Positions 22,552 to 37,144 of a DNA stretch of 64,000 nt are shown here, piece by piece. This DNA is from Microbacterium sp. UFMG61. Its GTDB lineage: Bacteria; Actinomycetota; Actinomycetes; Actinomycetales; Microbacteriaceae. Under the pieces are notes generated by a model. The model was not told where the DNA came from. It searched no databases and saw nothing but the letters and a program-made list of their open reading frames with translations. Location: the NCBI RefSeq assembly GCF_015354505.1, contig NZ_JACAFP010000001.1, forward strand, positions 26,040 through 90,039, written 5' to 3'. Made by a program: the position numbers and the translations under genes. Position 1 is the stretch's first letter, and every line of letters begins with the position of its first letter.

Positions 22552-22605
22552 TGTGAGATGACCTTGAACCCGCGCCAACGGAGCACTCAAGTTGCTCCTG
22601 AAAAT

Positions 22606-22624
22606 CAGATCTGCTCCAGATCTG
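22606..22624 (+). terminator. Short hairpin after the E2 gene
   Basis: CAGATCTG-CTC-CAGATCTG forms an 8-base stem with a 3-base loop 55 bases past the E2 stop. The same small region carries the direct repeat AGTTGCTCC twice (about 22590 and 22627). It may end the dehydrogenase operon or mark the edge of the accessory island. No T tract follows. Confidence 0.35.
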
Positions 22625-22679
22625 GTAGTTGCTCCATGGAATCACTGGGATCTCCACAAGACGTCGCCGGAGGGTCCTG

Positions 22680-22952
22680 ATGACAGAGCGAGTTCCTCGT
22701 AAGCCGCCGGCGGCTCTCGTGGATCAGTGGCCGGACACGCCGACCATCGATCCAGCAGCTGAGACAGCACGCCGATTCGTACTCAACCTCCACGATGCTC
22801 TCGGAGATCGAAGCATCCGCGGCGTCGCGCGTGATGCCGGGGTCAACGAGCGCACCATTCGCCACATACTTGCCGGTTCCGTGTGGCCCGACCTGCACAC
22901 GATCTCAAATCTCAAAACTGCCCTCGGCCGAGCGCTCTACCCATCGCGGTGA
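22680..22952 (+). CDS. Small HTH (XRE-like) DNA-binding protein
   Basis: A 90-residue protein whose second half, LGDRSIRGVARDAGVNERTIRHILAGSVWPDLHTISNLKTALG, is a helix-turn-helix of the XRE/lambda-repressor type. GGAGGG lies 8 bases before the ATG. It stands at the left edge of the accessory region and could be a regulator of the island; it has no partner gene. An earlier in-frame start at 22629 exists but has no convincing ribosome-binding site. Confidence 0.65.
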   Translation: MTERVPRKPPAALVDQWPDTPTIDPAAETARRFVLNLHDALGDRSIRGVARDAGVNERTIRHILAGSVWPDLHTISNLKTALGRALYPSR

Positions 22953-23270
22953 GGGCGGGAGGCCGTGACTGTCGCTGGCCGTGCACTTGTTGGCCGCACT
23001 ACCCGCCCTGACTCAGTCATACGGCGAGGCGACGGCGCCGGGGTTGAACACGTCGACCAGATCGCCATCGTCTCGCGGTTTACGTAGACATCGCATCCAC
23101 TGTCGCGTACACCGCATCGACCCGGTCACTTGAGAGGGCTGACGCCTCCTCGCGTGGCACTACAGAGATCTTGACTCGGCCGTGTCAACTCGGGTGAAGC
23201 ACGCCGCGCGGTGGTGACACACCAACGCCAGTGTCCGATTTTTGCCGGAACATGAAGTTATAGTGTTCGC
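22953..23270. other. Non-coding stretch, 318 bases
   Basis: No gene is supported on either strand. It contains a probable promoter for the next gene: TATAGT (23259-23264) is only 6 bases before the ATG at 23271, the pattern of a leaderless transcript. The rest shows no clear repeat or RNA structure. Confidence 0.4.
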
Positions 23271-24020
23271 ATGGGGACGAACCGTGAAGGGGACGCGATG
23301 CAAGACAACGAGGGGCGCCTGTGGGCCGTTGAGACGTTCGGTGCCGACGGGGTGCAGGTCCGGACCTTGGCCCCGGTCATCGTTCGCGAGTGCCACGACA
23401 AGCTAGCTAACGCCCAGGTCGAGGCGGATATGGAGCACCAGGGTGTCTACGGCAACATCTGGCACCGGTGCCTGAAAGAATTCGCATCCCAGCTTGGCCG
23501 GCTTCCCTCGGCGGAGCGTGTCCCGGTGCCTGGCGCTGGTTACTCGGTGGTCGCGTTCGGCGATGTCGTCCTCTTCCCGTGGCGGTACTCGCGCGACGCG
23601 GGGGTCGAGATCGGCTCCCGGAAGTTCGCGGTCTCGGACGCACGCGTCTCCCTCTTCCGCACCGTCAACGACAAGCGCGGTCAGCAGCTTGACCTGGGGT
23701 TCGAGCACCCCGAGCTGACCGCGGAGGAGATGGAACTCGTCGACAAGCAACAGCACGAAGCGCTCGACGCGGTGATGCATCAGTACTCGCGCGTCGTGGT
23801 CGTCGGCTATGCGAGCAACTCCTCCGGCCTGCACAATGTCATGTGGGGTGAAGCGAGGCTCGGCCAGGACGGCTTCCTGGTCTTCTCCACCAGCGAATCG
23901 CTCATGGAACTCGCCTCGGCCGCTCTCGTCCACGTCAACGCCGAGGAGAGTTTCGACAGCGGAGACGTGCCCACCGCCATCCTGGAGGTGAAGGAAGCGC
24001 AGGGAGGGTCCGATGACTGA
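23271..24020 (+). CDS. Unknown protein paired with ImmA/IrrE peptidase
   Basis: A 249-residue soluble protein (240 if the ATG at 23298, preceded by AAGGGGA, is used). It is acidic, without membrane segments or signal peptide. Segments such as YSRVVVVGYASNSSGLHNVMWGEARLG and PVPGAGYSVVAFGDVVLFPWRY look like a compact alpha/beta domain. I do not recognise the family. The last eight bases overlap the downstream XRE/ImmA gene, so the two are translated together, the classic layout of a toxin-antitoxin or phage-defence pair in which the XRE-peptidase protein acts as regulator or antitoxin. The likely -10 TATAGT supports a leaderless start at 23271. Confidence 0.6.
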   Translation: MGTNREGDAMQDNEGRLWAVETFGADGVQVRTLAPVIVRECHDKLANAQVEADMEHQGVYGNIWHRCLKEFASQLGRLPSAERVPVPGAGYSVVAFGDVVLFPWRYSRDAGVEIGSRKFAVSDARVSLFRTVNDKRGQQLDLGFEHPELTAEEMELVDKQQHEALDAVMHQYSRVVVVGYASNSSGLHNVMWGEARLGQDGFLVFSTSESLMELASAALVHVNAEESFDSGDVPTAILEVKEAQGGSDD

Positions 24021-25161
24021 ATGGGAGCCACCTCTCTCACTGTTCTCGTCCATCGACTCTGCCGTCGCCGGCGGGACCTTCGACGCGGAACGTCTGACGC
24101 AGGCCCGCTACGCCGCCGGCCTGTCCAAAGCAAAGCTGGCCGACCAGATCGGGGTGACCCCCGCTGCCATCGGACAGTACGAGTCGCGGCAGATGAGTCC
24201 GAGGGCAGACGTCCTCGCCTCGCTCAGCGAAGTGCTCGACGTCCCCGTGGACTTCTTCACCCTCACCGTCGGGCGACCGCTCACCCGTGTGGACGGGATG
24301 AAGGCCCACTTCCGAAGCCTGCGGTCGACCACGACCCGCGACCGGCAGAAGGCGCTCGCGTTCATCGAGCAGGTGTGGGAGCTCGCGAACGCGTTGGAGC
24401 GGCGGGTGCGGCTTCCTGACCTCGCGCTGCCGCCTGATCTCGACACCACCAGCCCTGCTGCTGCCGCGCAGGACCTGCGGGCGCGGTGGGGGTTGGGGGT
24501 GAAGCCCATCAAGCACCTAGTCGCTCAGCTGGAGACCCGCGGGCTCATCGTGTCGATCTTGTCGCTGGCGAGCGCCGACGTGGCTCGTGTGGGCGCCTTT
24601 TCTACCTCGCACCTGCCGCGGCCCGTGGTCGTCATCACCCCGGAACGGGCGATGTCTGTGTACGTGCATCGGTTCACCGTCGCGCACGAGCTCGGGCACC
24701 TGATCCTGCACCGTGACGCGGCGCCGGGCGACCCGCAACAGGAACGTGAGGCAGATCAGTTCGCCGCTGAGCTGCTGACCCCCCGCGCGCAGATCATCAA
24801 TATGTTGCCGCGCACAGTCAACTTGCCGAAGCTCGCCGCCCTCTCCCAGCACTGGGGAGTGTCCGTAGACTCGCTTCTCATCCGGATGAAGGAGACGGGA
24901 ACGGTATCCGAGGTGTCGGTGCGCCGTGGCTATCAGCGCCTCAATCAGCTCCGAGCTGCAGGTGGTGACCCAGCAGAGCCGGTCTCGAACTTTCCCGGAG
25001 AGATGCCGAGCATGCTCAGGCAAGCCGCGACGCTCGCCGACGCGACTGGGTACTCCATCGCGCACCTAGCCCGCGAGCTCAGATGGAAGCCCGCGCGAGT
25101 GCGCGAGGTGCTCGGCGTGGTGGACGAGCGTCCTCAGCTTCGCATCTTGCCGCCGGCGTAG
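24013..25161 (+). CDS. XRE regulator fused to ImmA/IrrE metallopeptidase
   Basis: A 382-residue protein. An XRE helix-turn-helix (AGLSKAKLADQIGVTPAAIGQYESRQMSPRADVLASLSEVL, residues ~35-76) is followed by an ImmA/IrrE (M78) zinc peptidase with VAHELGHLILHRDA, i.e. HExxH near residue 225, and the third ligand in EREADQFAAELL near 247. A C-terminal ~110 residues include a helical YQRLNQLRAAGGD region. It probably represses its own operon and cleaves a partner upon a signal. It overlaps the unknown upstream gene by eight bases. COG2856-like antitoxins in RosmerTA-type systems have this architecture, as I recall it. Confidence 0.88.
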   Translation: MTEWEPPLSLFSSIDSAVAGGTFDAERLTQARYAAGLSKAKLADQIGVTPAAIGQYESRQMSPRADVLASLSEVLDVPVDFFTLTVGRPLTRVDGMKAHFRSLRSTTTRDRQKALAFIEQVWELANALERRVRLPDLALPPDLDTTSPAAAAQDLRARWGLGVKPIKHLVAQLETRGLIVSILSLASADVARVGAFSTSHLPRPVVVITPERAMSVYVHRFTVAHELGHLILHRDAAPGDPQQEREADQFAAELLTPRAQIINMLPRTVNLPKLAALSQHWGVSVDSLLIRMKETGTVSEVSVRRGYQRLNQLRAAGGDPAEPVSNFPGEMPSMLRQAATLADATGYSIAHLARELRWKPARVREVLGVVDERPQLRILPPA

Positions 25162-25256
25162 CTAAGTGTCGAGCGTGACCGGCTGTGACGAGCTGCATCA
25201 CATCCCAGATCTCACTGCATCGATGTGACTGGACACCTTTCGATAGTGTGCCGAGC

Positions 25257-25838
25257 ATGAAGAAGCCTGATGACGTCTTACTGCTTGTCTCACTCGTACT
25301 GAGCGGGGTGGTCATCGGCGGAATGTCCGTTTTTCTGTTCTCGAGAGGTTGGACCGCCGAGTGGGTGGAGACGGCCGGGACCTGGGCGGGGGCTATAGGT
25401 ACGGTCCTTGCCCTGGTGTGGGCGGTCCGAGTGTTTCGGTCAGAGCAGCGACGCAAAGCCACGCAAGAGCTGGCTGACCGAAGGTTCGCAGCCGAGCGAG
25501 TCGATCTGCGGCTCGTGGGTGGAGGTTCGATACACCCCAACCTACTGACGGATGGCCATATCGAGTTCTTCAACGATTCGGACTCACCCGTTCGAATCAC
25601 TCGGGTGGACATCCCCACTCTCGAATTTAAGTCGCGGTTGCCGATCCCGATTCGATTGCGACCCCTCGGCGGCTGGAAGGAACACTTCCAGCCAGTCGCG
25701 CCAGTTCAAGTGGAGAAGGGAGAAACCGCTCAGCGCCCGATCCTCAGCCACCCATGGACAATGGAGTTTGAGTGCCGCGGGGAGACGTGGCGCCTGAGCT
25801 CGGATCGCACATTGGTCAACCAGAATGCAGTTGACTAG
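25257..25838 (+). CDS. Two-helix membrane protein of unknown function
   Basis: A 193-residue protein with two membrane helices at the N-terminus (VLLLVSLVLSGVVIGGMSVFLFS and WVETAGTWAGAIGTVLALVWAVRVF) and a cytoplasmic C-terminal domain of about 120 residues. The TAGTWAGAIGTVLALVWAVRVFRSEQRR segment is a pattern often seen in small accessory-region membrane proteins. Base composition is lower in G+C than in the core genes. It follows the ImmA gene by about 95 bases and belongs to the accessory island. Function is unknown. Confidence 0.65.
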   Translation: MKKPDDVLLLVSLVLSGVVIGGMSVFLFSRGWTAEWVETAGTWAGAIGTVLALVWAVRVFRSEQRRKATQELADRRFAAERVDLRLVGGGSIHPNLLTDGHIEFFNDSDSPVRITRVDIPTLEFKSRLPIPIRLRPLGGWKEHFQPVAPVQVEKGETAQRPILSHPWTMEFECRGETWRLSSDRTLVNQNAVD

Positions 25839-26150
25839 TCCACTTCTCTAGGAACGGCAGGTTCACCCCCGACAGCATCACGGCGGGATCGAGTGAACGC
25901 TTGTCCTGGATCTGTGAACTCGGCCACGACTGGCCCGCCGAGGTACGGAACCTCGCTCGGGGCTCACGATGCCTGTATTGCATCAACAAGTGGGTGTGGG
26001 TGGGGTTCAACGACATGGCGACCACCCGGCCAGACATGGCCGACTAGCGGGCAGCAGAAGGCTCGAGGCGCCAGCTGCCAGGACTGCCTTGCGGAGCGCA
26101 TCGAGCGAGAACGGAAGCAGGTGCGAGCTGCAGCAGGAGTGTTGTCGCCT
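25835..26150 (+). pseudogene. Degraded zinc-ribbon (treble-clef, DUF4379-like) domain gene
   Basis: No start codon exists, but the frame that opens after TGA at 25832 and ends with TAG at 26045 reads RFTPDSITAGSSERLSWICE then LGHDWPAEVRNLARGSRCLYC and GFNDMATTRPDMA. This is the repeat unit of the zinc-ribbon proteins (LTPDxVTxGSxxxxWWxCxxGHxWxxxxxxRxxGxxCPYC...xxGxNDLATxxPxLA). A second fragment, GASCQDCLAERIERERKQ, follows in another frame (to about 26140). The gene has lost its start and is frameshifted. Such proteins often neighbour nucleases in defence regions. Confidence 0.6.
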
Positions 26151-26428
26151 TCAATGATGCTGGGTCGGCTCGAGCGTACGTCTCGGCAACGCCAAGCGCC
26201 TCCTGCAAGCACCCGAACGTGATCTGGTCGCGCAGCTCTTGGAACTCACGGTTCACGTGACCGCATCTCAGTATGGGGCGCACGGTGACGGCGCCGGCTA
26301 GAGACAAGGTCGCCGACCTGATGCACAATGAAGACATCGAGAGTCAGGTTGTTGTCGGCCCCCGTGGGCCAGCCGCCGAACTCCACATTGCCAGCCCGCC
26401 GTCGGGCTGAGCTTCTTGGGTAGGGATT
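26151..26428. other. Stretch between zinc-ribbon remnant and OLD nuclease gene
   Basis: No gene is supported. A 45-codon frame on the plus strand (26273-26410, beginning MGRTVTAPARDKVADLM) could be a further fragment, and a 97-codon minus-strand frame (26044-26337) has no ribosome-binding site; neither resembles a known family. The region looks like decayed sequence. Confidence 0.35.
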
Positions 26429-28141
26429 CTAGAGGAACGCCGAAGTCGGGACGCTCTCAAGAATCTTCACTACTTCAGCATCGAGCCAGCGAGCCAGCGC
26501 TTGCATATGGGGCCCGGGATCGCTTCCCTCACGAACGGCTTTCGCCAGTAGCGGCTTCTTTTCTTCGAGAACCTTGCGCTTGACCGCGTACCTGGCGTTG
26601 GGAAGGGCGTTCTCGAGGCCCAGTTTTGCTGACGTGACGACTGTCTCGATTAGATCAGTCGACAGGAACCGTTCTATGCCTACGAAGGTCTGATCCAACT
26701 GAGGGTTCGCGACGGCCTCGGGCGGGACAAGACAGACGGAATGAGGATGAACCGCGAGCACCTGGTTGTACTTCGGCGCGTCGGAATCCTCCCAGTCGCG
26801 AAGAACCAATACAGGGGCGGACAACGGGCGGGAAGCAACCACCTGCTTGTTGTACTTCAGGTACTGGAGCACGCTGTCGCCCCCGATCTCGTCGCCGAAT
26901 GCAGCGCTTGGAGACAGCAACCGCCATCGTGGTCGAAGACCTGCTGCTTGAATCGCTGCGCGAATATGAACCTCGTCGAACTTTCCCTCGACAATCACGA
27001 TGGGTTCGTTCGGATGTGTAAAGAGCGGATGGGCGAACGAAGTCACCGATGCGCGCATGCTGGCTTCGAGGGCTTGGCGCGCTGTCAGCTTTTCGTAAGC
27101 GGTGTCCGGATTCTTCGATGCGAACCAGGCGTGATTCGCCACACGCACGAACTCGTCCTGATGCGTAGTTACGAGCACCTGGCGCTTCGCGTCCGTCGAG
27201 TACGCATGGAGATCGGTAGAAAACTGTGCGCGAAGTGCGGCATGAAGAAAGGACTCGGGCTCCTCCATCGCCCAGACACTCGCCTGGACCCATCCGAAGC
27301 CGCCGCCCCGTCTCGTACGGTCAGCCAAGTCGAGCACATGAAGCAGCATAAAACTCTGCGCCCCCGAGCCTTCGAACTCGGGAGAGCGTGCAACATCGCC
27401 TTCTGCGATTGCGTTCACGCCCATCGTGAAGACGAGGTCGGCGAAATCACCAGGTAGGTCAGGTTCAAGCGCGAGCCCAGGAAGACCCTGGCCGAGTGCT
27501 GTTGAGGTATCGCCGAACATCCGGCTTCCCATGTCCCGCAACTCGGTCAACAGCACATCCACGGAAGACTCTCTGTAGGCCTTTGTGGACCGAAGTCGCG
27601 AGACAAGGTTCGAGCGGAGAGGTGCCAGCTCCGACTTGATGAGGTCTGCCGCTCGAGTGTGATTTGGTACGTAGACGAAACGAACCGCTCGAATGTGAGC
27701 CAACACGGATGCTAGGGCGTCGCCGGCTGCTTCGACGAGAGACTCCCGGTCTGCGCCGAATTGAAGAGTGTCAACGACCGTGGTCTTGTCAAACCCCAGA
27801 CTCCATTGCCTGCGAATGAACAACTCGTCGCTTATGCCCGATTCCGCATGGAATGCCTCCTGGCCTCGAACCTTGAAGTCTTCACCGATTCGCAGTCCGA
27901 CCGTAACTGAGATCGTCTTCTTCTTACGCTTGGGTGCGAAGCTGCTGAAGTCTTCGGTCATCACGAGAGTCGAGCGGTGCTCGTCTAGGAACCCATTGAA
28001 GAAGAGGTTCAGAGCTCGAAGAATATTCGACTTCCCGGCGCTATTGAGCCCAACGATGGCGGCGTAGTCCTCGAGCCCTTCAAGACTTGCCGAGCGAATC
28101 GAGCGAAAATTCTCCACGCCGACATAGGTGATGACCGTCAT
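26429..28141 (-). CDS. OLD-family ATP-dependent nuclease (AAA ATPase + TOPRIM)
   Basis: A 570-residue overcoming-lysogenization-defect family protein. The Walker A motif GLNSAGKS (residues 31-38) starts an ABC-type ATPase, Walker B is WAMEEPESFLHAAL near 291 with a histidine switch THQDEF near 325, and a TOPRIM nuclease domain begins at PIVIVEGKFDEVHIRAAI near 380. It lacks an adjacent UvrD-type helicase, so it is a stand-alone class 1 OLD nuclease and not Gabija. The start at 28141 is preceded by GGAGGA and opens with MTVITYVGVENFRSI. Its codon use is less G+C rich than that of the flanks, consistent with transfer. Confidence 0.85.
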   Translation of the reverse strand: MTVITYVGVENFRSIRSASLEGLEDYAAIVGLNSAGKSNILRALNLFFNGFLDEHRSTLVMTEDFSSFAPKRKKKTISVTVGLRIGEDFKVRGQEAFHAESGISDELFIRRQWSLGFDKTTVVDTLQFGADRESLVEAAGDALASVLAHIRAVRFVYVPNHTRAADLIKSELAPLRSNLVSRLRSTKAYRESSVDVLLTELRDMGSRMFGDTSTALGQGLPGLALEPDLPGDFADLVFTMGVNAIAEGDVARSPEFEGSGAQSFMLLHVLDLADRTRRGGGFGWVQASVWAMEEPESFLHAALRAQFSTDLHAYSTDAKRQVLVTTHQDEFVRVANHAWFASKNPDTAYEKLTARQALEASMRASVTSFAHPLFTHPNEPIVIVEGKFDEVHIRAAIQAAGLRPRWRLLSPSAAFGDEIGGDSVLQYLKYNKQVVASRPLSAPVLVLRDWEDSDAPKYNQVLAVHPHSVCLVPPEAVANPQLDQTFVGIERFLSTDLIETVVTSAKLGLENALPNARYAVKRKVLEEKKPLLAKAVREGSDPGPHMQALARWLDAEVVKILESVPTSAFL

Positions 28142-28182
28142 TAGTCCTCCGGCTCGACTGGGCTGGGCGGCGCTCTCGCGAC

Positions 28183-28641
28183 CTAGCCTCGTCGTGGCGA
28201 TTGCGATAGCGGCTTTGCAACGAAGATAGACGGCTCGTGCCCGACACCGCCAATCCGACCATGCTCCATGAGTCCGGCTCGACGCCAGAACCCATCCTGA
28301 TCTGAGAAAACCACGAGCTGGTGCTGGGGCCACATTTCTCGGAGAGTTGCCACCGCCGCGCGTCCAATGCCGCAGCGGCGGCGGTCTCCGCGCACTTCAA
28401 AACGACTGATCTCTAGCGTCGGGTGTCGCGCATCGAAGTCGGCAATGGGCACTTGAATCTTGTGCTCGAGGATGACTGAACGAGCCACCTCTTCGTCCTC
28501 GACAAACGCAACGAGAAACTTCGGCTGCGCACTCATCGCCCAACCAAGATCTGACCACCAGTCACGTTCGTACCCCGGAACGCTCACGTCGAAAGCCCCG
28601 TTTACTCGATGAAGTTCTACGATTGCAACTCTCTCAGTCAT
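28183..28641 (-). CDS. GNAT-family N-acetyltransferase
   Basis: A 152-residue GNAT protein. The acetyl-CoA-binding loop is RFEVRGDRRRCGIGRAAVATLREM near residue 80-100 (R-x-x-x-G-I-G-R/A), followed by the beta-4/alpha-4 block QLVVFSDQDGFWRRAGLMEHG with the conserved FWRRAGL. The start at 28641 opens MTERVAIVEL. It is divergent from the precursor-peptide genes, whose first start is 98 bases away, so it could modify the peptide product or give self-resistance, but it could equally be independent. Confidence 0.82.
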   Translation of the reverse strand: MTERVAIVELHRVNGAFDVSVPGYERDWWSDLGWAMSAQPKFLVAFVEDEEVARSVILEHKIQVPIADFDARHPTLEISRFEVRGDRRRCGIGRAAVATLREMWPQHQLVVFSDQDGFWRRAGLMEHGRIGGVGHEPSIFVAKPLSQSPRRG

Positions 28642-28739
28642 GGGACAAGTGTGCATGGTGCGGCAAGTTGATCCACGACCGACGGCTGATGCAGCCGAGG
28701 ACATGTAGTCTGCAGGCATCGACGGAGAAGGAGATAGCA

Positions 28740-28892
28740 GTGGGAAGTTCTGAGTCGCTGTTCACGACGCTCGCATCGGCGAACAGCAATCCGCGGCCGC
28801 GCCCTCAGCCTCAACCGTCCACCCTCACGGCAACCGTCGAGACGTCGGATCACGGATACGGGTATGGCGTAGCGCTGGTGGCGGGGCGCTGA
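28740..28892 (+). CDS. Candidate graspetide precursor peptide 1
   Basis: A 50-residue peptide from a GTG start with AAGGAG eight bases upstream. It opens MGSSESLFTTLASANSN, has a Pro-rich stretch (PRPRPQPQP, residues 18-26) and ends in a Thr/Ser/Asp/Glu/Gly-rich part: STLTATVETSDHGYGYG, then VALVAGR. SLFTTLASA (6-14) aligns with SLYSVLAVA in precursor 2 and TATVETSD (30-37) with TETLETSD, suggesting a leader recognition motif and a core. It lies directly upstream of precursor 2 and an ATP-grasp ligase. Known graspetides have Thr/Ser to Glu/Asp esters; which residues are linked here is inference. Confidence 0.7.
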   Translation: MGSSESLFTTLASANSNPRPRPQPQPSTLTATVETSDHGYGYGVALVAGR

Positions 28893-28894
28893 AC

Positions 28895-29047
28895 TTGGCA
28901 TCCGCGACGCTGACCGTTCCGTCCCTCTACTCTGTTCTCGCGGTGGCTGCACGTCAGGATCTGTCCGGCGGTCGTGCGACAGCCACGATGACTGAAACGC
29001 TCGAAACCAGCGACAGTGACGAGTCTGTTTCGCATCTGCTTCGATGA
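28895..29047 (+). CDS. Candidate graspetide precursor peptide 2
   Basis: A second 50-residue peptide begins with TTG two bases after the stop of precursor 1. It has SATLTVPSLYSVLAVAARQD at the N-terminus and TATMTETLETSDSDESV near the C-terminus. The shared T-x-T-x-E-T-S-D is encoded by entirely different codons (six of six conserved residues), which is expected from selection on protein. Its TGA overlaps the ATG of the ATP-grasp gene (ATGA), so translation is coupled. A later GTG at 28943 would give a shorter peptide lacking the SLYSVL leader motif. Confidence 0.62.
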   Translation: MASATLTVPSLYSVLAVAARQDLSGGRATATMTETLETSDSDESVSHLLR

Positions 29048-29997
29048 AGCGTGACGCCACCAGCACGCCACTGATCGTTGGCGACATCGATGACCCACAC
29101 GTCCAATCGGTGCGCGCGGCGCTGATCTCGCGAGACGCCGCGCCCGTGATCCTCGACCTCAATACCGTGATGAGCGCCGGTCTGACCATCTTCGAGGATC
29201 GCGCGGTAGTGAGCATCGACGGAGAATGGATCGAGACGAGTCGACTGCGAAGCGGGTGGCTGCGGCGCATGCACCGTGCGCAGTGGGGTCTCGGGGTGGA
29301 GACAGGAACTGTTGAAGCGCTGGAGCTCGGAACGTGGCACTCCGCCTACTCGTGGATGCTGGACGATGCCGAGATCCAGTGGGTAACGTCTCCGCGGAAT
29401 CTGCGCAAAGCGGAAGGGAAGATAGACCAGTGGCGGGCGGCTCGGCAGCTGGGTGTTGACTACCCCCACACGATGTTGACCACCTCGGCGCAGGCCGTTC
29501 GCTCCGAGTATCAGTGCGAAGTCATTGTCAAGCCTCTCGGCTCTGGTCAGTTCCTCGACGGAACTCAGATGAAGACTGTCTACGCCGAGTCGATGCTTCC
29601 GACCGATCCTCGTCTCGAGAACCTCGGCAAGGCTCCATTCATCGTTCAGGAACGCATCAAGGCGAAGCGACACTGGCGCGTAGTTACCGTTGGTGCTCAG
29701 GTGTGGGCTGGTGTCCTTCCTGTGGAACCCGGGGACCCCGCCGATTGGCGCCGAACAGCCGAGAACCACACCTCGTTCGAGGAGCAGGGCGACGTGAACG
29801 CCGACATCGCCAACGGAGCGATTGCCGTCGCGGGGCACTTCGAGCTTGGCTACTCCAGTCAAGACTGGGTAGAGACTTCCGAAGGGCGCACCGTTCTGCT
29901 CGACGTAAACCCCTCAGGTCAATGGCTGTTCCTCCCGGAGCGCGTCGGGGAGGAGGTGGCGATGGCGCTCGCAGACCGGATCGCGGGAGCGATATGA
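29044..29997 (+). CDS. ATP-grasp ribosomal peptide maturase (MvdC/MvdD-like)
   Basis: A 317-residue ATP-grasp ligase. The ATP-binding lysine is in CEVIVKPLGSGQF (~160), with PFIVQERIKAKRHWRVVTVGAQVW (~210-235) and the catalytic magnesium site LLDVNPSGQWLFLPE (285-299), the hallmark of graspetide ligases (microviridin-type MvdC/D: E-x-N-P-x-G-Q-W). The N-terminal ~100 residues form the family pre-ATP-grasp domain. It would form omega-ester or amide links in the two peptides encoded just upstream, to which it is joined by an overlapping start. It also overlaps the following membrane-protein gene (ATGA). Confidence 0.86.
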   Translation: MKRDATSTPLIVGDIDDPHVQSVRAALISRDAAPVILDLNTVMSAGLTIFEDRAVVSIDGEWIETSRLRSGWLRRMHRAQWGLGVETGTVEALELGTWHSAYSWMLDDAEIQWVTSPRNLRKAEGKIDQWRAARQLGVDYPHTMLTTSAQAVRSEYQCEVIVKPLGSGQFLDGTQMKTVYAESMLPTDPRLENLGKAPFIVQERIKAKRHWRVVTVGAQVWAGVLPVEPGDPADWRRTAENHTSFEEQGDVNADIANGAIAVAGHFELGYSSQDWVETSEGRTVLLDVNPSGQWLFLPERVGEEVAMALADRIAGAI

Positions 29998-30626
29998 CGT
30001 CCGATGCCCTCATCGAGGGACGGATGATGCTGAGCACGATTGCCGGGCTATGGTTCGGGCGGAAGGTTTGGTTGCCGAAGGACCCGAAGCCGGCTGACAG
30101 CAGTTGGGTGGATGGAACGCACCGCAGGAACATCGACGGAATCACTGACCTCTACCGAGGACGTCTAGCGAGTGAGCGGGCCGGCATCGAAGCAGTGCGA
30201 CGACGGGCCGAGTTTGCCCTCACCGCCGTCATCGCTGCCGCAGGACTGAGCGCCAGCGGATTCGAACGTCTGATGGCCGCATCGGCGTTCAGCTCGCTTC
30301 CGCTCCTTTTGTGGCTTGGCGGTCTCGCGGTCGAGATCTTCGCGATACTGGTTTTCGCAGGGGTCGCGGTATCGAGCAAATCGATAGGCGAGGTGGACGT
30401 TACCGCGTACAGCGCCATGAAACACGGAACGAGAGAGGAGCTTCGACAGTACGTATGGGCCACCCAAGTGACTTCTCGTACCCGTCGCGCTGTAGTGACG
30501 GTGTTCAGGGATGCGTTCCTTGTGGCCTTGCTCGGACTCATGCTGTTCGGTGGGGCTCACCTCGCGGCGTGGATGACGCCCGTTCCCGCTGACCCTCCCG
30601 TGGTCGTGAACGTCGTGACTCCCTGA
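29994..30626 (+). CDS. Membrane protein of the graspetide operon
   Basis: A 210-residue protein with a soluble, Arg-rich N-terminal ~75 residues and three hydrophobic segments (FALTAVIAAAGLSASG, LPLLLWLGGLAVEIFAILVFAGVAV, and DAFLVALLGLMLFGGAHLAAWM). A charged helix (GTREELRQYVWATQVTSRTRR) lies between the second and third. It is not an ABC or MFS transporter. The helix-loop-helix arrangement recalls SLATT-like 2TM effector modules only weakly. Its start overlaps the ligase stop, so it is part of the same operon and could serve as immunity factor, export aid or activity effector. Confidence 0.7.
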   Translation: MTSDALIEGRMMLSTIAGLWFGRKVWLPKDPKPADSSWVDGTHRRNIDGITDLYRGRLASERAGIEAVRRRAEFALTAVIAAAGLSASGFERLMAASAFSSLPLLLWLGGLAVEIFAILVFAGVAVSSKSIGEVDVTAYSAMKHGTREELRQYVWATQVTSRTRRAVVTVFRDAFLVALLGLMLFGGAHLAAWMTPVPADPPVVVNVVTP

Positions 30627-30650
30627 GCGTGGCAGGGGGCTTGGCCTGGG

Positions 30651-30670
30651 CGCTGGAGTCCGCTCCAGCG
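30651..30670 (+). terminator. Hairpin after the graspetide operon
   Basis: CGCTGGAG-TCCG-CTCCAGCG forms a perfect 8-base stem with a 4-base loop, 25 bases after the membrane-protein stop. It is a plausible operon terminator though no T tract follows. The region to 30877 shows no gene. Confidence 0.45.
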
Positions 30671-30877
30671 GGCTCGCCGTCAGAGTTTCGCACTGGAGCA
30701 TCTTTTCTGACGTGAAGGCCGCGTACCCAGTTCGACGGTTCTCACTGATTGCATGGAGCAGGCGCTACTTAGTTGATGCAGGTCGGAGGTCACCTCATAA
30801 GTGATGGCGGATCGTGCGGGGATACAGTGGCAGCAGAACCGCGACGACCGGCCCCCCGACAGAACGGACTCCAGCGG

Positions 30878-31792
30878 ATGAAGATCGAACCCACGCCCAT
30901 CACCCTCGGAACCTCCGGCCTCGGCCGGCACTCGGAGCCGGGGTCCGCCGAGGAGAGAGCGGCCGTCGAGGTCGCGATCGACCTGCTCACGAGCCGACAC
31001 GGGTTCGTGGACACCTCGAACAACTACGCCGGCGGTCGCTCCGAGGCCGTGCTCGGGATCGCGCTGCGCGAGCTCGGGATGGACGGCTCGCGGGTGATCT
31101 CGAAGGTGGATCAAGACCCGGAGACCGGTGTGTTCGACCGCGACCGCGTGCTCCGCTCGTTCGAGGAGACCACCGCCCGGCTCGGGGTCGACCGCCTTCC
31201 GCTGTTGCACCTGCACGACCCGTACTCGGTGTCGTTCGAGGACACGATCTCGATCGGCGGCGCGGTGCAGGGTCTCATCGAACTCCGGAGCGCGGGCGTG
31301 GTGGACGCGATCGGCGTCGCGGCCGCTCCGGTGCCGCTGATGGCGAAGTACGTCGAGACGGGCGTGTTCGATGCCGTGCTGATCCACAACCGGTTCACGC
31401 TCGTCGACAGCTCGGCTGAGACGGTGTTCGCCGACGCCAAGGCCCGCGGCATGGCCGTGTTCAACGCGGCACCGTTCGGTTCGGGACTGCTCGTCAAGGG
31501 GCCGCATGCCGGTGCCCAGTACGCCTATCGACCTGCCACCGAAGAGCTGCTGGCGTGGACCGAGCGGCTGCAGCTTCTGTGCGCGGAGCACGGGACGTCG
31601 ATGGCCGCCGCAGCGCTGCACTACTCGCTGCGATCGCCACTGGTCGACTCGACGGTCGTCGGGGTGTCGTCACCGCATCGTCGCGAGCAGCTCGACGAGC
31701 TGGTGCAGGCGGAGGTTCCGGAAGGGCTGTGGGATGCCGTCGAGAGCCTGGGGCCGGCGCCCTCCCCGGTGGACGACAGCGACTACGCCTGA
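30878..31792 (+). CDS. Aldo/keto reductase
   Basis: A 304-residue NADPH-dependent aldo/keto reductase of the L-fucose/D-threo-aldose dehydrogenase type. The catalytic tetrad is present in outline: FVDTSNNYAGGRSEAVLG (Asp, Tyr), ISKVDQD (Lys) and LLHLHDPYSV (His). The C-terminal block LVDSTVVGVSSPHRREQLDELV is the cofactor-binding loop. It converges on and overlaps the 3' end of the EamA gene by 10 bases. Substrate is probably a sugar or small aldehyde. Confidence 0.85.
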   Translation: MKIEPTPITLGTSGLGRHSEPGSAEERAAVEVAIDLLTSRHGFVDTSNNYAGGRSEAVLGIALRELGMDGSRVISKVDQDPETGVFDRDRVLRSFEETTARLGVDRLPLLHLHDPYSVSFEDTISIGGAVQGLIELRSAGVVDAIGVAAAPVPLMAKYVETGVFDAVLIHNRFTLVDSSAETVFADAKARGMAVFNAAPFGSGLLVKGPHAGAQYAYRPATEELLAWTERLQLLCAEHGTSMAAAALHYSLRSPLVDSTVVGVSSPHRREQLDELVQAEVPEGLWDAVESLGPAPSPVDDSDYA

Positions 31793-32724
31793 ACGCTCTC
31801 GCTGTTCAGCTGCGCGACCGGCGCCTCGAGCGCGCGGTGCCGGTGGCGTCGCTCGATCGCCTGCCCGGCGTAGGACGCGGCGACGATGAGAGCGGCGCCG
31901 AGCAGGCCGACGGCGCCGACGCTCTCCCCGCCGAGCACGATTCCGACCAGGAGTGCCCAGACCGGCTCTGTGCCCATGAGGATGCTGGCGCGCGTCGCCG
32001 AGGTGCGCCGCACCGCCCAGAGCTGAACGACGAACGCGAACACCGAGCACATCAAGCCCAGGAACAGGACGTTCGCCCACCCGAAGACGTCGAGTCGGGC
32101 GACCGCCGCGGGCAACTCCGCTCCTGCGACCAGTGATGCCGTAGCCGCGCAGACGATGAGCTGCACCAGGACGACCGCGAGAGTGCTGTCATCGCGCCCG
32201 CGGGTCAGCCTGGCGCTCGCGGTCACGTGAAACGCGCGGACGACCGCCGCCGCGACCACCAGGGCGTCGCCTGCGTTCGGCATCCGCAGCCCGCCGTCCG
32301 ATACGAGAAGGGCGACCCCCACCACGGCTGCGACCGCCGCGACGAAGTACGAGCGCGGAAGCCATGACCGTGCGGCGAGACTCTCGAGCACCGGGGTGAA
32401 GATCAGCGCGAGGCTGATGAGCAGGCCGGCGTTGGTCGCCGAGGTGAGATGCACGCCCCAGGTCTCGAGTCCGATGATGGCGGCTTGAGAGAAGCCGAGC
32501 ACGACGGCCACGGCGAGGCCGCGACCGCGCGGCATCCGCTCCCTGCGCGCCGCGCAGATCAGGCCGAGAGCGACCGCCGCGACGAGGAACCGGAGGGCGA
32601 CCGCGGGGGCGACTCCGATGTCGAGCGCGAGACTCTTCGCAGCGACGAAGCTTGCTCCCCAGACGGCCGCGACGGCGATCAGCAGAACGTCGACGAGCAG
32701 GTCAAGAGGGTGACGGCGAGGCAT
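31783..32724 (-). CDS. EamA/DMT-family transporter
   Basis: A 313-residue, ten-helix DMT exporter; the first repeat has VLLIAVAAVWGASFVAAKSLAL and the second ends MGTEPVWALLVGIVLGGESVGAVG. The start at 32724 is preceded by TGGAG, and the upstream ATG at 32778 would place the start inside the divergent lysR promoter, so it is less likely. It is divergent from a LysR-type regulator that is its likely controller, the same arrangement as in YdcZ/EamA-LysR pairs. Confidence 0.88.
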   Translation of the reverse strand: MPRRHPLDLLVDVLLIAVAAVWGASFVAAKSLALDIGVAPAVALRFLVAAVALGLICAARRERMPRGRGLAVAVVLGFSQAAIIGLETWGVHLTSATNAGLLISLALIFTPVLESLAARSWLPRSYFVAAVAAVVGVALLVSDGGLRMPNAGDALVVAAAVVRAFHVTASARLTRGRDDSTLAVVLVQLIVCAATASLVAGAELPAAVARLDVFGWANVLFLGLMCSVFAFVVQLWAVRRTSATRASILMGTEPVWALLVGIVLGGESVGAVGLLGAALIVAASYAGQAIERRHRHRALEAPVAQLNSESVQA

Positions 32725-32795
32725 TACTCCAGATTCTCGGCTTTCTCGATGAAGAGCCAGACTCAGTTGCTTAGCCATCCTTTAAGGTTGCCCTT

Positions 32796-33698
32796 ATGGA
32801 TCCCGCCCACCTCCGCCTGCTGCGCGAGCTGCGGGATCGGGGCAGCGTCACGGCGGTCGCCGGCGCCCTCGGCATCTCCGCCTCGGCGGTCTCGCAGCAG
32901 CTCTCGACGCTGCAGTCGAGCGCGGCGCTGCCGCTCACCGCGCGGCGAGGTCGCGTCCTGACGCTCACCGCGGCGGGCGAGGCGCTCGCCGCGGCGAGCA
33001 CCCGTGTCGATGAGGCACTCACGGCGGCGCGTGATGCGGTGGGCGCTCTGCTCGACGCGGGCGACCGGCCGGTTCGGCTCTCGTCCTTCACCAGTGCGGG
33101 TCTCGCACTGTTCGGACCCCTGGTGCGAGAGCTCGGTGGCACTCCCTCGGTGCACCTCGCCGATGAGGACGTGGCGCACCGGGACTTCCCCGGCCTGACC
33201 GCCGACTACGACCTCGTGATCGCGCATCGGCTCGCTCACGATTCGCCCTGGCCGCTCGATCGTGTCGTCGCGACGCCGCTGATCGACGAACCGCTCGACA
33301 TCGCGCTGCACGCCGAGCATCCTCTGGCGAATCGTGCGCAGATCGACCTCGACGATCTGGTGGACGAGGACTGGGTGTCGGTGCATCAGGGATTCCCGCT
33401 CGCCGGCGTGCTCGATCATCTGGCGGCGCGGGCCGGGCGGCCCTTTCGCATCGCACACCGCATCAACGAGTTCTCGGTGACGGCCGAGGTCGTCCGCGCC
33501 GGGGCGGCCATCGCCATCATGCCCCGCACGACCGCCTCGTCTCTGGCCGTCGACGGGCTCCTGCTGCGGCCGCTGGCCGGTATCGAGCTCGTGCGTCACC
33601 TCGATGTGCTCGCGCGGCCCGATGCGCTCGCCTACACCTCGGTGCGACGCGTGCTGCGTACGCTGCAGGTCGTCGCGGCGCGTGTGCAGCACGCCTGA
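32796..33698 (+). CDS. LysR-family transcriptional regulator
   Basis: A 300-residue LTTR. The N-terminal winged HTH (RLLRELRDRGSVTAVAGALGISASAVSQQLSTLQ) is followed by a substrate-binding domain from about residue 90. It is divergent from the EamA exporter with a 71-base gap that must contain both promoters and a T-N11-A-type binding site, and it presumably regulates that exporter. The inducer cannot be predicted. Confidence 0.9.
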   Translation: MDPAHLRLLRELRDRGSVTAVAGALGISASAVSQQLSTLQSSAALPLTARRGRVLTLTAAGEALAAASTRVDEALTAARDAVGALLDAGDRPVRLSSFTSAGLALFGPLVRELGGTPSVHLADEDVAHRDFPGLTADYDLVIAHRLAHDSPWPLDRVVATPLIDEPLDIALHAEHPLANRAQIDLDDLVDEDWVSVHQGFPLAGVLDHLAARAGRPFRIAHRINEFSVTAEVVRAGAAIAIMPRTTASSLAVDGLLLRPLAGIELVRHLDVLARPDALAYTSVRRVLRTLQVVAARVQHA

Positions 33699-33815
33699 GG
33701 GCGGGGAAACGGAGACCGATCGGGCGGATGCCGGCGCGTCGTGTGCCCGACCCGCGGGCACACGAGCTATTCGTCTGCGTTGTCCAGCTGGCCCGACGGA
33801 CGGCGCCGGGGACGA

Positions 33816-34355
33816 CTATGGGCGCCGCAGGTCAGCGAGGGTCGTGGTGAGCGCGGTGCCGGGATCCCAGTGCCGCACGGTGGCGGCATGAGCGCGGATG
33901 TCTCCGCCGACCAGCTCGAGCGCGGCCGGAAGATCGGCGATGCGCAGCCGGCGGGCGAGGGCGACGTGCGGCATCCACTCGCCCGGTGCGGTGTGCGGGG
34001 CATCGTCGCCCGACCCGGCGGCGGCGAGGATCGTCTCGCGAAGACCGAGCAGCTCTGCACTGGGAACGATGCTGCGTGCCAGCACACGCCGCTCGCCGGT
34101 GCCGAAGAGCAGGGGAGCGCCCAGCGTGACGGGGAACGACGGGATGCCGGCCAGGACACCCGGGTCGAGTGGTGACAGGTCGACGCGCGCGACAAGTGTG
34201 ACGTGGGGTCGGTTGCTCGCCGACGTGTGCCTCGCGAGGCTCGACATTCCGCGGGTCGCAAGTGCATCCCACTCGGCCCGGATCGCGTTCTCGGCATCCC
34301 GGTCGAGGAGCAGTTCGATCGCCGCGGGGGAGATGCGGGGCTCTGGTTCGCGCAC
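33816..34355 (-). CDS. 2'-5' RNA ligase-like (2H phosphoesterase) protein
   Basis: A 179-residue 2H-superfamily protein. The first H-x-T/S motif is RPHVTLVARVD near residue 50; the second is MPHVALARRL near residue 128, where Ala replaces the usual Ser/Thr. These proteins act on 2',3'-cyclic or 2'-5' phosphate bonds in RNA or nucleotides. The altered second motif may reduce activity. It is convergent with the lysR-like gene. The gap to the next gene (34356-34496) shows nothing distinct. Confidence 0.78.
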   Translation of the reverse strand: MREPEPRISPAAIELLLDRDAENAIRAEWDALATRGMSSLARHTSASNRPHVTLVARVDLSPLDPGVLAGIPSFPVTLGAPLLFGTGERRVLARSIVPSAELLGLRETILAAAGSGDDAPHTAPGEWMPHVALARRLRIADLPAALELVGGDIRAHAATVRHWDPGTALTTTLADLRRP

Positions 34356-34496
34356 GGATCGATTATGTCGCGACCCCCGCCCGGCATCCGCCCGGGAAAA
34401 CCCAGGCCGTTCCTGTCAGGGTCGGCGGGTCGTACCTCGACCCGCCGGGTTGGGCACGGATGGTCCCCGTTTTCCGACGAGAGACACGCCGCGACG

Positions 34497-35717
34497 TCAG
34501 CTCACCGCGGTGAGCCGCCGCTCCGCGAGCAGCGGCACGGCGACCTCGCGCGCGGCGCGGCGTGCGGTCGTGACGGCTCCGACCGACACGACCTCAGCAC
34601 CGAGCGTCGAGGCGAGGATCTCGGGTGCCGGCAGGTGCAGCTCGGTCGGCAACACCTCGCGCGCGGCGGAGACGACGGGTGCGACGCTCTCGGCGACAGC
34701 GCCGCACACGATGACGCGCAAGGGGTCGTACATGCTGCCGAGCACGCCGACCACGCGGGCGAGCGTCGCGCCGACGCGCGACGTCGCGAGCAGTGCGTCG
34801 ACATCGCCCGAGGCTGCCGCCGTCAGCACGATCCGCGGGTCCACCCGCTTCTCGGCCGCGAGTCGGCCGATCGCCGAGTCCGGGTCGATCTCTGCGCTGG
34901 CGACGGCGGCCCGCACCTCGTCCTGCAGGGCGTAGCTCAGGCCGAAGGCTGATCCGACCCCCACGATGTGGTCGAACACGATGCCCTCGCCGACCCCGCC
35001 GTGCGCGCCGTGCAGCACGTGGCCGTCGACGACGACGCCCCCTCCGAAGCGCTCGCCGGCGAGCAGGGCGACGTAGTCGCGGCATCCGACCGCCGCCCCC
35101 ACCGATCCTTCGGCGATCGCGGCGAGCTGTGCGTCGTTCTTGATCTCGACGGCGGGCGCCCAGTCGGCCAGCGCCTCGGCGAGGCCCGGATTCGTGCGCT
35201 CCCAGAAGCCGTCGGGATGCGGGGGAGAGATGCCCGCGCGGTTCACCGGCGCCGCGACGCCGACGCAGATCGCGAGAATCGACTCGTGCGAGACGTCCGC
35301 CTCGGCGAGCGCCTGCTCCATCTGTTCGAGGATCGTCGCACGCCGTGTCGATGCCGACTGGGTCGAGTCGATGTCGGTGCGGTGGTGCACGAGAGTGCGG
35401 TCGAGCAGGTCGGCGATCGTCACGGCGACGTGGTTGTCACCGGCATCCACGCCGATCACCACGCCGAGATCGGATGCCAGCACGAAACGTCGTGCGGGCC
35501 GCCCGGCGCGGTAGCTCCCTGCTGCTCGCGCATTGGGCAGTTCGTGCAGCACCTCGGCGCGGACGAGCGTGTCGATCGCGTCGATCGCGGTGGAGCGGGT
35601 CAGCGAGGTGGCGGCCATGACCTCGGTCGCAGTGAACTCGCCTGCCGTCCACGCGAAGTCGAGCACGGTGCCGACGCTCGCGCGTCCGGTGCCGAGACCT
35701 GCGGATACTTCTGTCAC
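34497..35717 (-). CDS. ROK-family transcriptional repressor
   Basis: A 406-residue ROK regulator. The N-terminal winged HTH is GEFTATEVMAATSLTRSTAIDAIDTLVRAEVL; the ROK ATPase-like domain starts near residue 88 (GVVIGVDAGDNHVAVTIADL). The zinc-binding CXCGXXGC(L/V)E stretch of canonical ROK proteins is missing: GAHGGVGEGIVFDHIVG stands in its place, so it has lost that site. A GTG start at 35717 with GAGG before it gives the normal length. It is divergent from the alpha-glucoside operon and is its likely sugar-responsive regulator. Confidence 0.88.
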   Translation of the reverse strand: MTEVSAGLGTGRASVGTVLDFAWTAGEFTATEVMAATSLTRSTAIDAIDTLVRAEVLHELPNARAAGSYRAGRPARRFVLASDLGVVIGVDAGDNHVAVTIADLLDRTLVHHRTDIDSTQSASTRRATILEQMEQALAEADVSHESILAICVGVAAPVNRAGISPPHPDGFWERTNPGLAEALADWAPAVEIKNDAQLAAIAEGSVGAAVGCRDYVALLAGERFGGGVVVDGHVLHGAHGGVGEGIVFDHIVGVGSAFGLSYALQDEVRAAVASAEIDPDSAIGRLAAEKRVDPRIVLTAAASGDVDALLATSRVGATLARVVGVLGSMYDPLRVIVCGAVAESVAPVVSAAREVLPTELHLPAPEILASTLGAEVVSVGAVTTARRAAREVAVPLLAERRLTAVS

Positions 35718-35764
35718 GGGTCTTGACCTCACTCTCGTCCAGATGAGAGAGTACCGTTCATCGA

Positions 35765-35789
35765 AGTAAATTCGCTCACTAGATTTAGT
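35765..35789. promoter_or_regulatory. AT-rich inverted repeat, candidate ROK operator
   Basis: AGTAAAT (35765-35771) and ATTTAGT (35783-35789) form an inverted repeat with one mismatch in the gap between the ROK gene and the binding-protein gene. AT-rich TTAGTAAATT-type palindromes are typical ROK operators. It is 30 bases before the GTG of the binding-protein gene. Confidence 0.45.
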
Positions 35790-35818
35790 CTGCGGATCTA
35801 CAGGACGAAAGGACAACG

Positions 35819-37144
35819 GTGTCTCCGAAATCTCCATCCCCGGTGCGAATCGTGGCCGGCGCGGCCGCGCTCGTGCTGGTCGGGGCCGGGCTGGCCGGCT
35901 GCTCGACGTCAGGCGGTGCCGAGACGATCCGCTTCACGTTCAACAAGCGTGAGGCGATCGGTTTCATGACCGATCTGGTCTCTCAGTTCAACTCGTCGCA
36001 GAGCGACGTGCGTGTCGAGATCGACACGTCGGGTCCCGACGTCATCTCGGCGAGCTTCGTGCGGGGCAACCCGCCGGACCTCATCCTCGGCAACTACAAC
36101 TATGAGATCGCGCGCTTCGTGCAGCGGTGCGCCATGAGCGATCTCTCCGGCACGGATGCCGCGGCATCCGTCCGCGACGACCTGCAGCCGCTCATGGATC
36201 AGTACGGCTCGTGCGAGGGCCGCACCAGCGCCCTGCCGTACTCGGTGATGGCCGCATCGGTCATCTACAACAAGGAGATCTTCGACGCTCAGGGGCTCGA
36301 GGTGCCGCAGACCTGGGACGAGCTGATCGCCGTGTGCGACCAGCTGAAGGAGGCGGGCATCGACCCGTTCTACGCGACCTTCAAGGACGACTGGACGGTC
36401 GGTCAGGGCTGGTACGACTACTCGATCGGCGGCTCGGTCGACACGATCGAGTTCTTCGACGCGATGGCCGAGGAGGGGGCTTCCGTCGGTCCCGACTCTC
36501 CCGTCTCGTTCGAGCAGGACTTCGCCGAGCCCATGGAGCAGATGATGCAGCTCGCTGACGGCTATACGAACGAGGATGCTGCGAGCCGCGGATACGGCGA
36601 CGGCAACCTCGCCTTCAGCAAGGGCGAGGCCGCGATGTACATGCAGGGCCCCTGGGCCTTCAGCGAGATCGCCAAGACGGCGCCCGACCTCGAACTGGGC
36701 ACCTTCCCGCTGCCGATGACCGATGACCCCGCCGACCTCGGCGTGCGCGTCAACATGGACCTGGGCGCCATGATCCCCGAAGGATCCACGCACCAGGAGG
36801 CGGCCCGGGAGTTCCTCGAGTACCTCTACCTGCCCGAGAACATCGAGGCGTACAACGAGTCGCAGCTCGGCTTCACGCCGACGAAAGACGCCCCGGCTCC
36901 GAATGACCCGCGCATCGAGGGGATGATCGAGTACTACGAGAACGGCCAGATCTATCAGGGGCCCTCGGTGCTCGTACCCAAGACGATCCCGGTGATGAAC
37001 TACGCCCAGGCGATGGCGCTGGGTGCCTCCACCACCTCGACGCTGCGCACCATGGACGCGGACTGGGCACGCATCGCCTTCCGCGCGCCGATTCCCAAGA
37101 CCGATGATGCGGCATCCGGCGAGACAGAGGAGTCCGCACCGTGA
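35819..37144 (+). CDS. Sugar ABC transporter substrate-binding lipoprotein
   Basis: A 441-residue family-1 (MalE-type) solute-binding protein. It has a lipoprotein signal with the lipobox LAGC (VGAGLAGCSTSGG) near residue 26, then the binding fold (RGNPPDLILGNYNYEIARF, IYNKEIFDAQGLEVPQTWDE, GEAAMYMQGPWAF). It collects an oligosaccharide at the outer face of the membrane for the two permeases downstream. It starts with GTG and overlaps the first permease by four bases. With the GH13 glucosidase downstream the substrate is probably maltose, isomaltose, trehalose or sucrose-like alpha-glucosides. Confidence 0.9.
   Translation: MSPKSPSPVRIVAGAAALVLVGAGLAGCSTSGGAETIRFTFNKREAIGFMTDLVSQFNSSQSDVRVEIDTSGPDVISASFVRGNPPDLILGNYNYEIARFVQRCAMSDLSGTDAAASVRDDLQPLMDQYGSCEGRTSALPYSVMAASVIYNKEIFDAQGLEVPQTWDELIAVCDQLKEAGIDPFYATFKDDWTVGQGWYDYSIGGSVDTIEFFDAMAEEGASVGPDSPVSFEQDFAEPMEQMMQLADGYTNEDAASRGYGDGNLAFSKGEAAMYMQGPWAFSEIAKTAPDLELGTFPLPMTDDPADLGVRVNMDLGAMIPEGSTHQEAAREFLEYLYLPENIEAYNESQLGFTPTKDAPAPNDPRIEGMIEYYENGQIYQGPSVLVPKTIPVMNYAQAMALGASTTSTLRTMDADWARIAFRAPIPKTDDAASGETEESAP

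Follow-up and report, generated by a model that had tools for sequence, protein, structure and literature searches.

Microbacterium sp. UFMG61 carries, in a 64,000-nucleotide stretch of contig NZ_JACAFP010000001.1 (hereafter the window), an operon of two precursor peptide genes, a gene for an ATP-grasp ligase of the graspetide-synthetase kind, and a gene for a small predicted membrane protein, arranged head to tail on the + strand (Table 1). Relatives of this operon adjoin known phage-defence genes in several actinobacteria, and it therefore likely makes a new group of ring-closed peptides for microbial conflict. The product that we predict, with about an even chance of being right, is a ring-closed conflict peptide from which the membrane protein would protect the producer. 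The first-pass annotation had read the locus as a candidate graspetide operon, and this reading is supported by the kinship of the ligase and by a clade-wide pairing with precursors.

Operon layout and kinship of the ligase

The layout given in the first pass, two 50-residue peptide genes followed by the ligase and a small membrane protein, was confirmed at the same positions, including translational coupling through ATGA overlaps at the peptide 2/ligase and ligase/membrane protein junctions. The sequence AAGGAG (28728-28733) lies 5' of the GTG start of peptide 1, and the two peptide genes are separated by a 2-base gap without overlap. The whole 3.72 Mb source genome encodes one such ligase.

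When scored against curated models, the ligase gave 107.1 bits with TIGR04187, 95.3 bits with MvdC (TIGR04185), 74.7 bits with MvdD (TIGR04184), and 25 bits with the RimK family. TIGR04187 was thus its best NCBIfam match, but every score was far under the curated cut-off (350, 425, and 475 bits for TIGR04187, MvdC, and MvdD, respectively), indicating that the ligase is not a member of any of these three families. In a search with its predicted fold, the nine best solved entries were all graspetide macrocyclases. The DVNPSGQW motif claimed for the ligase is present at residues 287-294, and residues K163, H210, R212, D287, and N289 are invariant among 39 relatives. In the ligase tree, from which the near copies L073 and L079 were excluded, the clade was set apart from five other graspetide-type ligases with support of 100/100. 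Sequence scores and predicted fold together support the view that the ligase is kin to the graspetide synthetases and not to RimK; the concern that it might fall among non-peptide ATP-grasp enzymes was not borne out. The TgmB / GRASP_SAV_5884 ligases of Actinomycetota, which TIGR04187 represents and which include those of the graspimiditides, are nearest to it by score, but it differs from them in scoring so far below their cut-off and in forming a separate clade, and no methyltransferase partner was seen in the neighbour lists read by eye.

Precursor peptides and their conserved core

Same-type peptides adjoin the ligase in 30 of the 30 clade loci examined, which answers the doubt whether homologues would be found near ligases elsewhere. 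These loci are not independent because they include near copies (L070-L075 with L079; L076 and L077 with L159). A first peptide pattern matched beside the ligase in 25 of the 30 loci, with one stray same-strand match in 296,442 bp and none on the antisense strand in 353,442 bp; in the five loci that it missed, such peptides were present on reading by eye. A second pattern, combining leader and core, matched 54 ligase-adjacent frames, spread over 28 of the 30 loci and numbering at least two in 23 loci, and had no match elsewhere on either strand of 353,442 bp of clade loci. The two loci missed by the second pattern (L092 and L157) were picked up by the first. Both patterns were composed after the first peptides were known, and the counts therefore measure linkage to the ligase and not an unbiased discovery rate.

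The conserved core across the clade is T-x-[TS]-[IV]-E-[TS]-x-D. We aligned 42 cores from 23 loci, excluding seven near copies, on the anchor E[TS]xD, in which three positions are fixed by construction. Relative to the Glu of this anchor, Thr was found at -4 in 38/42 cores, Thr or Ser at -2 in 33/42, Ile or Val at -1 in 33/42, and Asp or Glu at +5 in 32/42. Over all pairs of eight related loci, the ratio of nonsynonymous to synonymous differences (pN/pS) was 0.13 in the 13-codon core of peptide 1 vs 0.46 outside it, and 0.22 vs 0.53 in peptide 2; the core is under stronger constraint than the remainder of the peptides. Within the subclade of the window, the two peptide types stay distinct, with a HGYGYG-like tail in peptide 1 and a DSDE-like tail in peptide 2. 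The Thr and Ser hydroxyls kept in the core bear on a rival activity proposed for the ligase, namely the addition of amino acids or another molecule to the acidic side chains of the peptides in the manner of RimK, instead of ring closure. We consider this improbable, because glutamylation would not need these hydroxyls and because graspetide synthetases rank first both by sequence and by fold.

The leader of the clade peptides contains a conserved [STD]-[LF]-[YF] motif, which differs from Phhx(1,2)h, a leader motif that PMC8939145 describes as common, in about half of graspetide precursors. Members of the graspetide class are recognized by an adjacent precursor in which a conserved leader is followed by conserved Thr/Ser/Lys donors and Asp/Glu acceptors, and the ligase has such a precursor at its side. 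The links that define the class are side-chain esters or amides, each with a mass loss of 18 Da. According to PMC13097080, the ligase of this class phosphorylates a carboxylate, which is then attacked by a side-chain nucleophile. By analogy, the conserved leader would dock on the ligase, ATP would activate a Glu or Asp of the core, and a nearby Thr or Ser would displace the phosphate, so that Thr/Ser hydroxyls are likely tied to Glu/Asp side chains within the core. The core and tail of peptide 1 hold only two acidic residues, E34 and D37, whereas E5 falls within the leader, and we infer at most two such links in this peptide and possibly more in peptide 2. With the start codon read as Met, the calculated monoisotopic masses before modification are 5175.53 Da for peptide 1 and 5208.59 Da for peptide 2.

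The precursor models of Pfam and NCBIfam (microviridin, Strep_pep, Actino_peptide, Frankia_peptide, and others, the presence of each in the library being taken as given) matched none of 12 peptides, comprising the two window peptides at E up to 1 and 10 peptides from other loci at E up to 10, a negative that is tempered by the weakness of HMMER on sequences so short. The 10 non-window peptides had only unrelated Pfam/NCBIfam matches, at E 0.019 and above. Peptide 1 had no match among approximately 5.8 billion proteins at the sensitivity of that search tool, although a 52-residue relative, annotated as a hypothetical protein, is encoded on a Streptomyces plasmid. The first-pass suggestion of a new core thus holds with respect to Pfam and NCBIfam, but PMC13097080 gives 24 plus 19, in total 43, numbered graspetide groups, to one of which the clade core may already belong.

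Known graspetide systems differ from this operon in several respects. Microviridins (MdnA with MdnB/MdnC) have two ligases, a PFFARFL-like leader, and an acceptor run of DxEE, whereas this operon has one ligase, peptides without such a leader, and acceptors at E(0), D(+3), and D(+5) of the anchor; the ligase is also far from the microviridin ligases in score (95 bits vs the cut-off of 425 for MvdC, and 75 bits vs 475 for MvdD). Graspetides of the plesiocin (PsnB) and thuringinin type have repeated TTxxxxEE-type cores. Such repeats are absent from the peptides here; the membrane protein families of that type (clusters 18 and 40) may or may not be kin to the one in this operon. The rosaritide system (MirA/MirB/MirC) is similar in having a conserved partner protein beside the ligase, which is described in PMC13097080 as needed for the reaction, but MirC is a PpiC-type isomerase-like protein and not a membrane protein. 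Rosaritide loci also encode a peptidase-containing transporter, which was not seen in this cassette.

The membrane partner, defence neighbours, and the proposed product

The membrane protein lies directly 3' of the ligase in 28 of the 30 clade loci, as judged with a profile of 26 relatives to which 10 of the 30 loci supplied rows. The matches were partial in L085, at a contig end, and in L091, and no match was found in L088 and L163. The model of the protein is confident (predicted local distance difference test score 90.0) and has long helices at 44-88, 102-126, and 145-194, and no clear solved structural relative of it was found. Hydropathy indicated three membrane segments in nine of 12 proteins inspected and two in the window protein, in which the C-terminal tail is devoid of Lys and Arg. 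Among 361 genomes of the genus, 10 contained the membrane protein: eight with the ligase, one as an intact orphan (G038, L188:7884-8564) with no ligase or precursor-like frame nearby, and one as a remnant (G335, L189:7869-8186). The remnant abuts the acyltransferase gene that flanks the operon's site in the window, suggesting that the cassette was formerly present there. In the Streptomyces branch, which lacks the usual membrane protein, an EcsC-family gene lies directly upstream of the peptide in L163 (L163:9159-9707) and in the Streptomyces plasmid relative (L192:8168-8716), and is a possible replacement partner.

We compared 107 proteins encoded within 8 kb on either side at 10 clade loci with 117 proteins encoded within 7 kb on either side at 12 control loci, which contain ordinary graspetide-type ligases. 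At E 1e-12, 81 PADLOC families were found around the clade loci vs 5 around the controls, although many of the 81 overlap with one another, being models for the same handful of genes. The Thoeris macro-domain protein was found in three members, RmrA in three, and ThsB in two. Eight of the 10 had a defence-type neighbour, counted by family matches or, in L151, by RmrA-like similarity (31 %); L156 had weak defence-type neighbours only, and none was seen in L164 (Frankia). Co-location with known defence genes thus exceeds the control, which is supportive but is not proof of function.

This company suggests a different role, in which intracellular cross-linked peptides would restrain or trigger the membrane protein, and the membrane would be damaged once infection disturbs them. 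The operon would then be a peptide-gated anti-phage or anti-plasmid module, with ligase-knotted peptides controlling a membrane effector, passed between genomes beside Thoeris and RosmerTA. We regard such a module as a tentative possibility, and it is the main and a serious rival to a self-protected conflict peptide. In addition to the counts above, ThsA-type and TIR genes occur even in the distant locus L163, and the cassette has no exporter. However, the ligase and the membrane protein matched 0 families of PADLOC-DB 2.0.0 at E 0.01, and the membrane protein was found intact on its own. Moreover, lanthipeptide clusters near phage-defence genes are reported in PMC12715929, so such company is not decisive. 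The operon shares its islands with type II-like Thoeris (TIR plus macro-domain membrane protein) and RosmerTA, and its small membrane protein is a possible end point as in those systems, but no TIR, macro, or toxin model matches its own proteins.

For the self-protected conflict peptide, the products would exert their effect extracellularly or at the cell membrane, and the membrane protein would protect the producer and perhaps also export the products. With such a role, the membrane protein could persist without ligase and precursors. We favour self-protection because the membrane partner is nearly fixed, an intact orphan exists, and the cassette contains no other genes. Several points weigh against this proposal. 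Inspection of the cassette revealed neither an exporter nor a protease nor a conserved double-glycine site that would account for release of the core, and Frankia L088 lacks the membrane partner. Only one orphan was found, and the pN/pS between it and its relatives (0.58-0.69) does not fall below the values for other distant pairs (0.39-0.62). The defence company of the relatives fits an anti-phage role at least as well, and the ring, product, secretion, and activity are all putative.

Genomic site, distribution, and significance

The operon lies in the low-GC part (GC content 0.59-0.63 at 25-31 kb vs 0.64-0.72 over most of the window) of a variable stretch between two conserved flank genes. 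In the relative G174, the flank-gene alignments end 28 bases apart, and the spacing of the flank genes is 0.9 kb in G071, 1.9 kb in G100, 13.9 kb in G094, and 9.7 kb in G302, whose insert contains the same operon. The site is thus a hotspot of variable content, almost empty in the relative G174. The chromosomal hotspot, the island, and the defence neighbours are newly recognized here, beyond the first-pass annotation. G094 has a different insert at the same hotspot (L168:278-14212), some frames of which, on reading by eye, resemble a toxin-antitoxin pair and a nucleotidyltransferase.

Table 1. Features of the operon and its surroundings (positions within the window)
Feature	Position	Strand	Remarks
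Precursor peptide 1 (A1)	28740..28892	+	50 aa, GTG start; leader motif SLFTTL; core STLTATVETSD at 28818-28850
Precursor peptide 2 (A2)	28895..29047	+	50 aa, TTG start; leader motif SLYSVL; core TATMTETLETSDSDE at 28979-29023
ATP-grasp ligase, graspetide-synthetase kind	29044..29997	+	317 aa
Predicted small membrane protein	29994..30626	+	210 aa; without known family
Variable stretch (hotspot) between two conserved flank genes	22552..34496		low-GC part about 25-31 kb
Flank gene, acyltransferase subunit of keto-acid dehydrogenase	21172-22551		identity read from sequence
Flank gene, ROK-like repressor	34497-35837		identity read from sequence
RosmerTA-type antitoxin partner gene	23271..24020	+	no Pfam or PADLOC match; same pair as L074:9706-10488 by position
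Helix-turn-helix plus ImmA/IrrE-type protease	24013..25161	+	RmrA (RosmerTA antitoxin) model, E 1.2e-86
AAA ATPase, OLD/AriA kind	26429..28333	-	Old E 9.4e-18, AriA E 1.2e-16; true start probably internal

RosmerTA systems are described in PMC10440598 as anti-phage toxin-antitoxin systems. The RosmerTA-type pair of the window (23271-25161) adjoins the operon in the same arrangement in other genera (L074:8562-10488). The ImmA-type protease of this pair lies within the island of the window and would offer a target, as might a phage protease, if the peptides were intracellular protease inhibitors; all graspetides characterized by 2022 inhibit proteases according to PMC8939145. We hold this to be very unlikely, as the ImmA-type gene is no constant neighbour (RmrA in 3/107 neighbour proteins of 10 loci) and the membrane partner would be left unexplained.

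Further mobility and defence genes near relatives of the operon include a TrwC relaxase (L075), a serine recombinase (L074), a tyrosine integrase (L077), GmrSD (L078), a ThsB-type TIR gene (L159), a TIR gene (L163), ThsC (L160), ApeA (L162), and RelA/SpoT-like and Panacea genes (L157). In L074, the Thoeris TIR and macro-domain proteins matched at E 8e-94 and E 5.8e-131, respectively. A macro-domain ThsA gene and a TIR gene adjoin the operon in L074:7124-8485, in L160:7207-9133 together with a HIT-family ThsC, and in L163:2178-4224, where the TIR belongs to a different type (TIR-TM model). In L159:886-4793, a TPR-S protein lies between two ThsB-type TIR genes, close to an integrase, in what may be another defence system. 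A conserved membrane-like protein of 118-150 residues (MIRQLW...), without a Pfam match, lies between the TrwC relaxase and the operon in several genera (L075:4185-4541, L076:4124-4576, and relatives).

The clade is patchy within its own genus: a close ligase relative (at least 187 bits) was found in 8 of 366 Microbacterium genomes, with six further weak matches (at most 55 bits). Wider samples added four from 398 family genomes, one from 396 order genomes, and three, at 33-37 % identity, from 394 class genomes. Among the matches listed, the clade occurs in Leucobacter, Gulosibacter, Rarobacter, Actinotalea, Microbacterium, Agromyces, Nocardioides, Pimelobacter, Plantactinospora, Asanoa, Actinomadura, and Frankia, and in metagenome-assembled genomes of Solirubrobacteraceae and Acidimicrobiaceae. 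In the ligase tree, Actinotalea (Cellulomonadaceae) pairs with Leucobacter (Microbacteriaceae) with support of 99/97 and Actinomadura with an Asanoa with 100/99, which suggests transfer between families.

Among the titles and abstracts listed on graspetides or ATP-grasp enzymes with phage defence, Thoeris, or Microbacterium, in a library short of most subscription journals, none describes the cassette, although supplementary tables may list it. The operon extends the graspetide-type ligases by a clade that is spread over several families of Actinomycetota, has a precursor core of its own, and is almost always accompanied by the membrane protein; the precursor peptides are easily overlooked by annotation. 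The cassette comprises three to four small genes with no exporter, protease, or regulator seen, and is therefore readily testable. It raises the question of whether the ring-closed peptides are weapons that travel with defence genes or are themselves components of defence.
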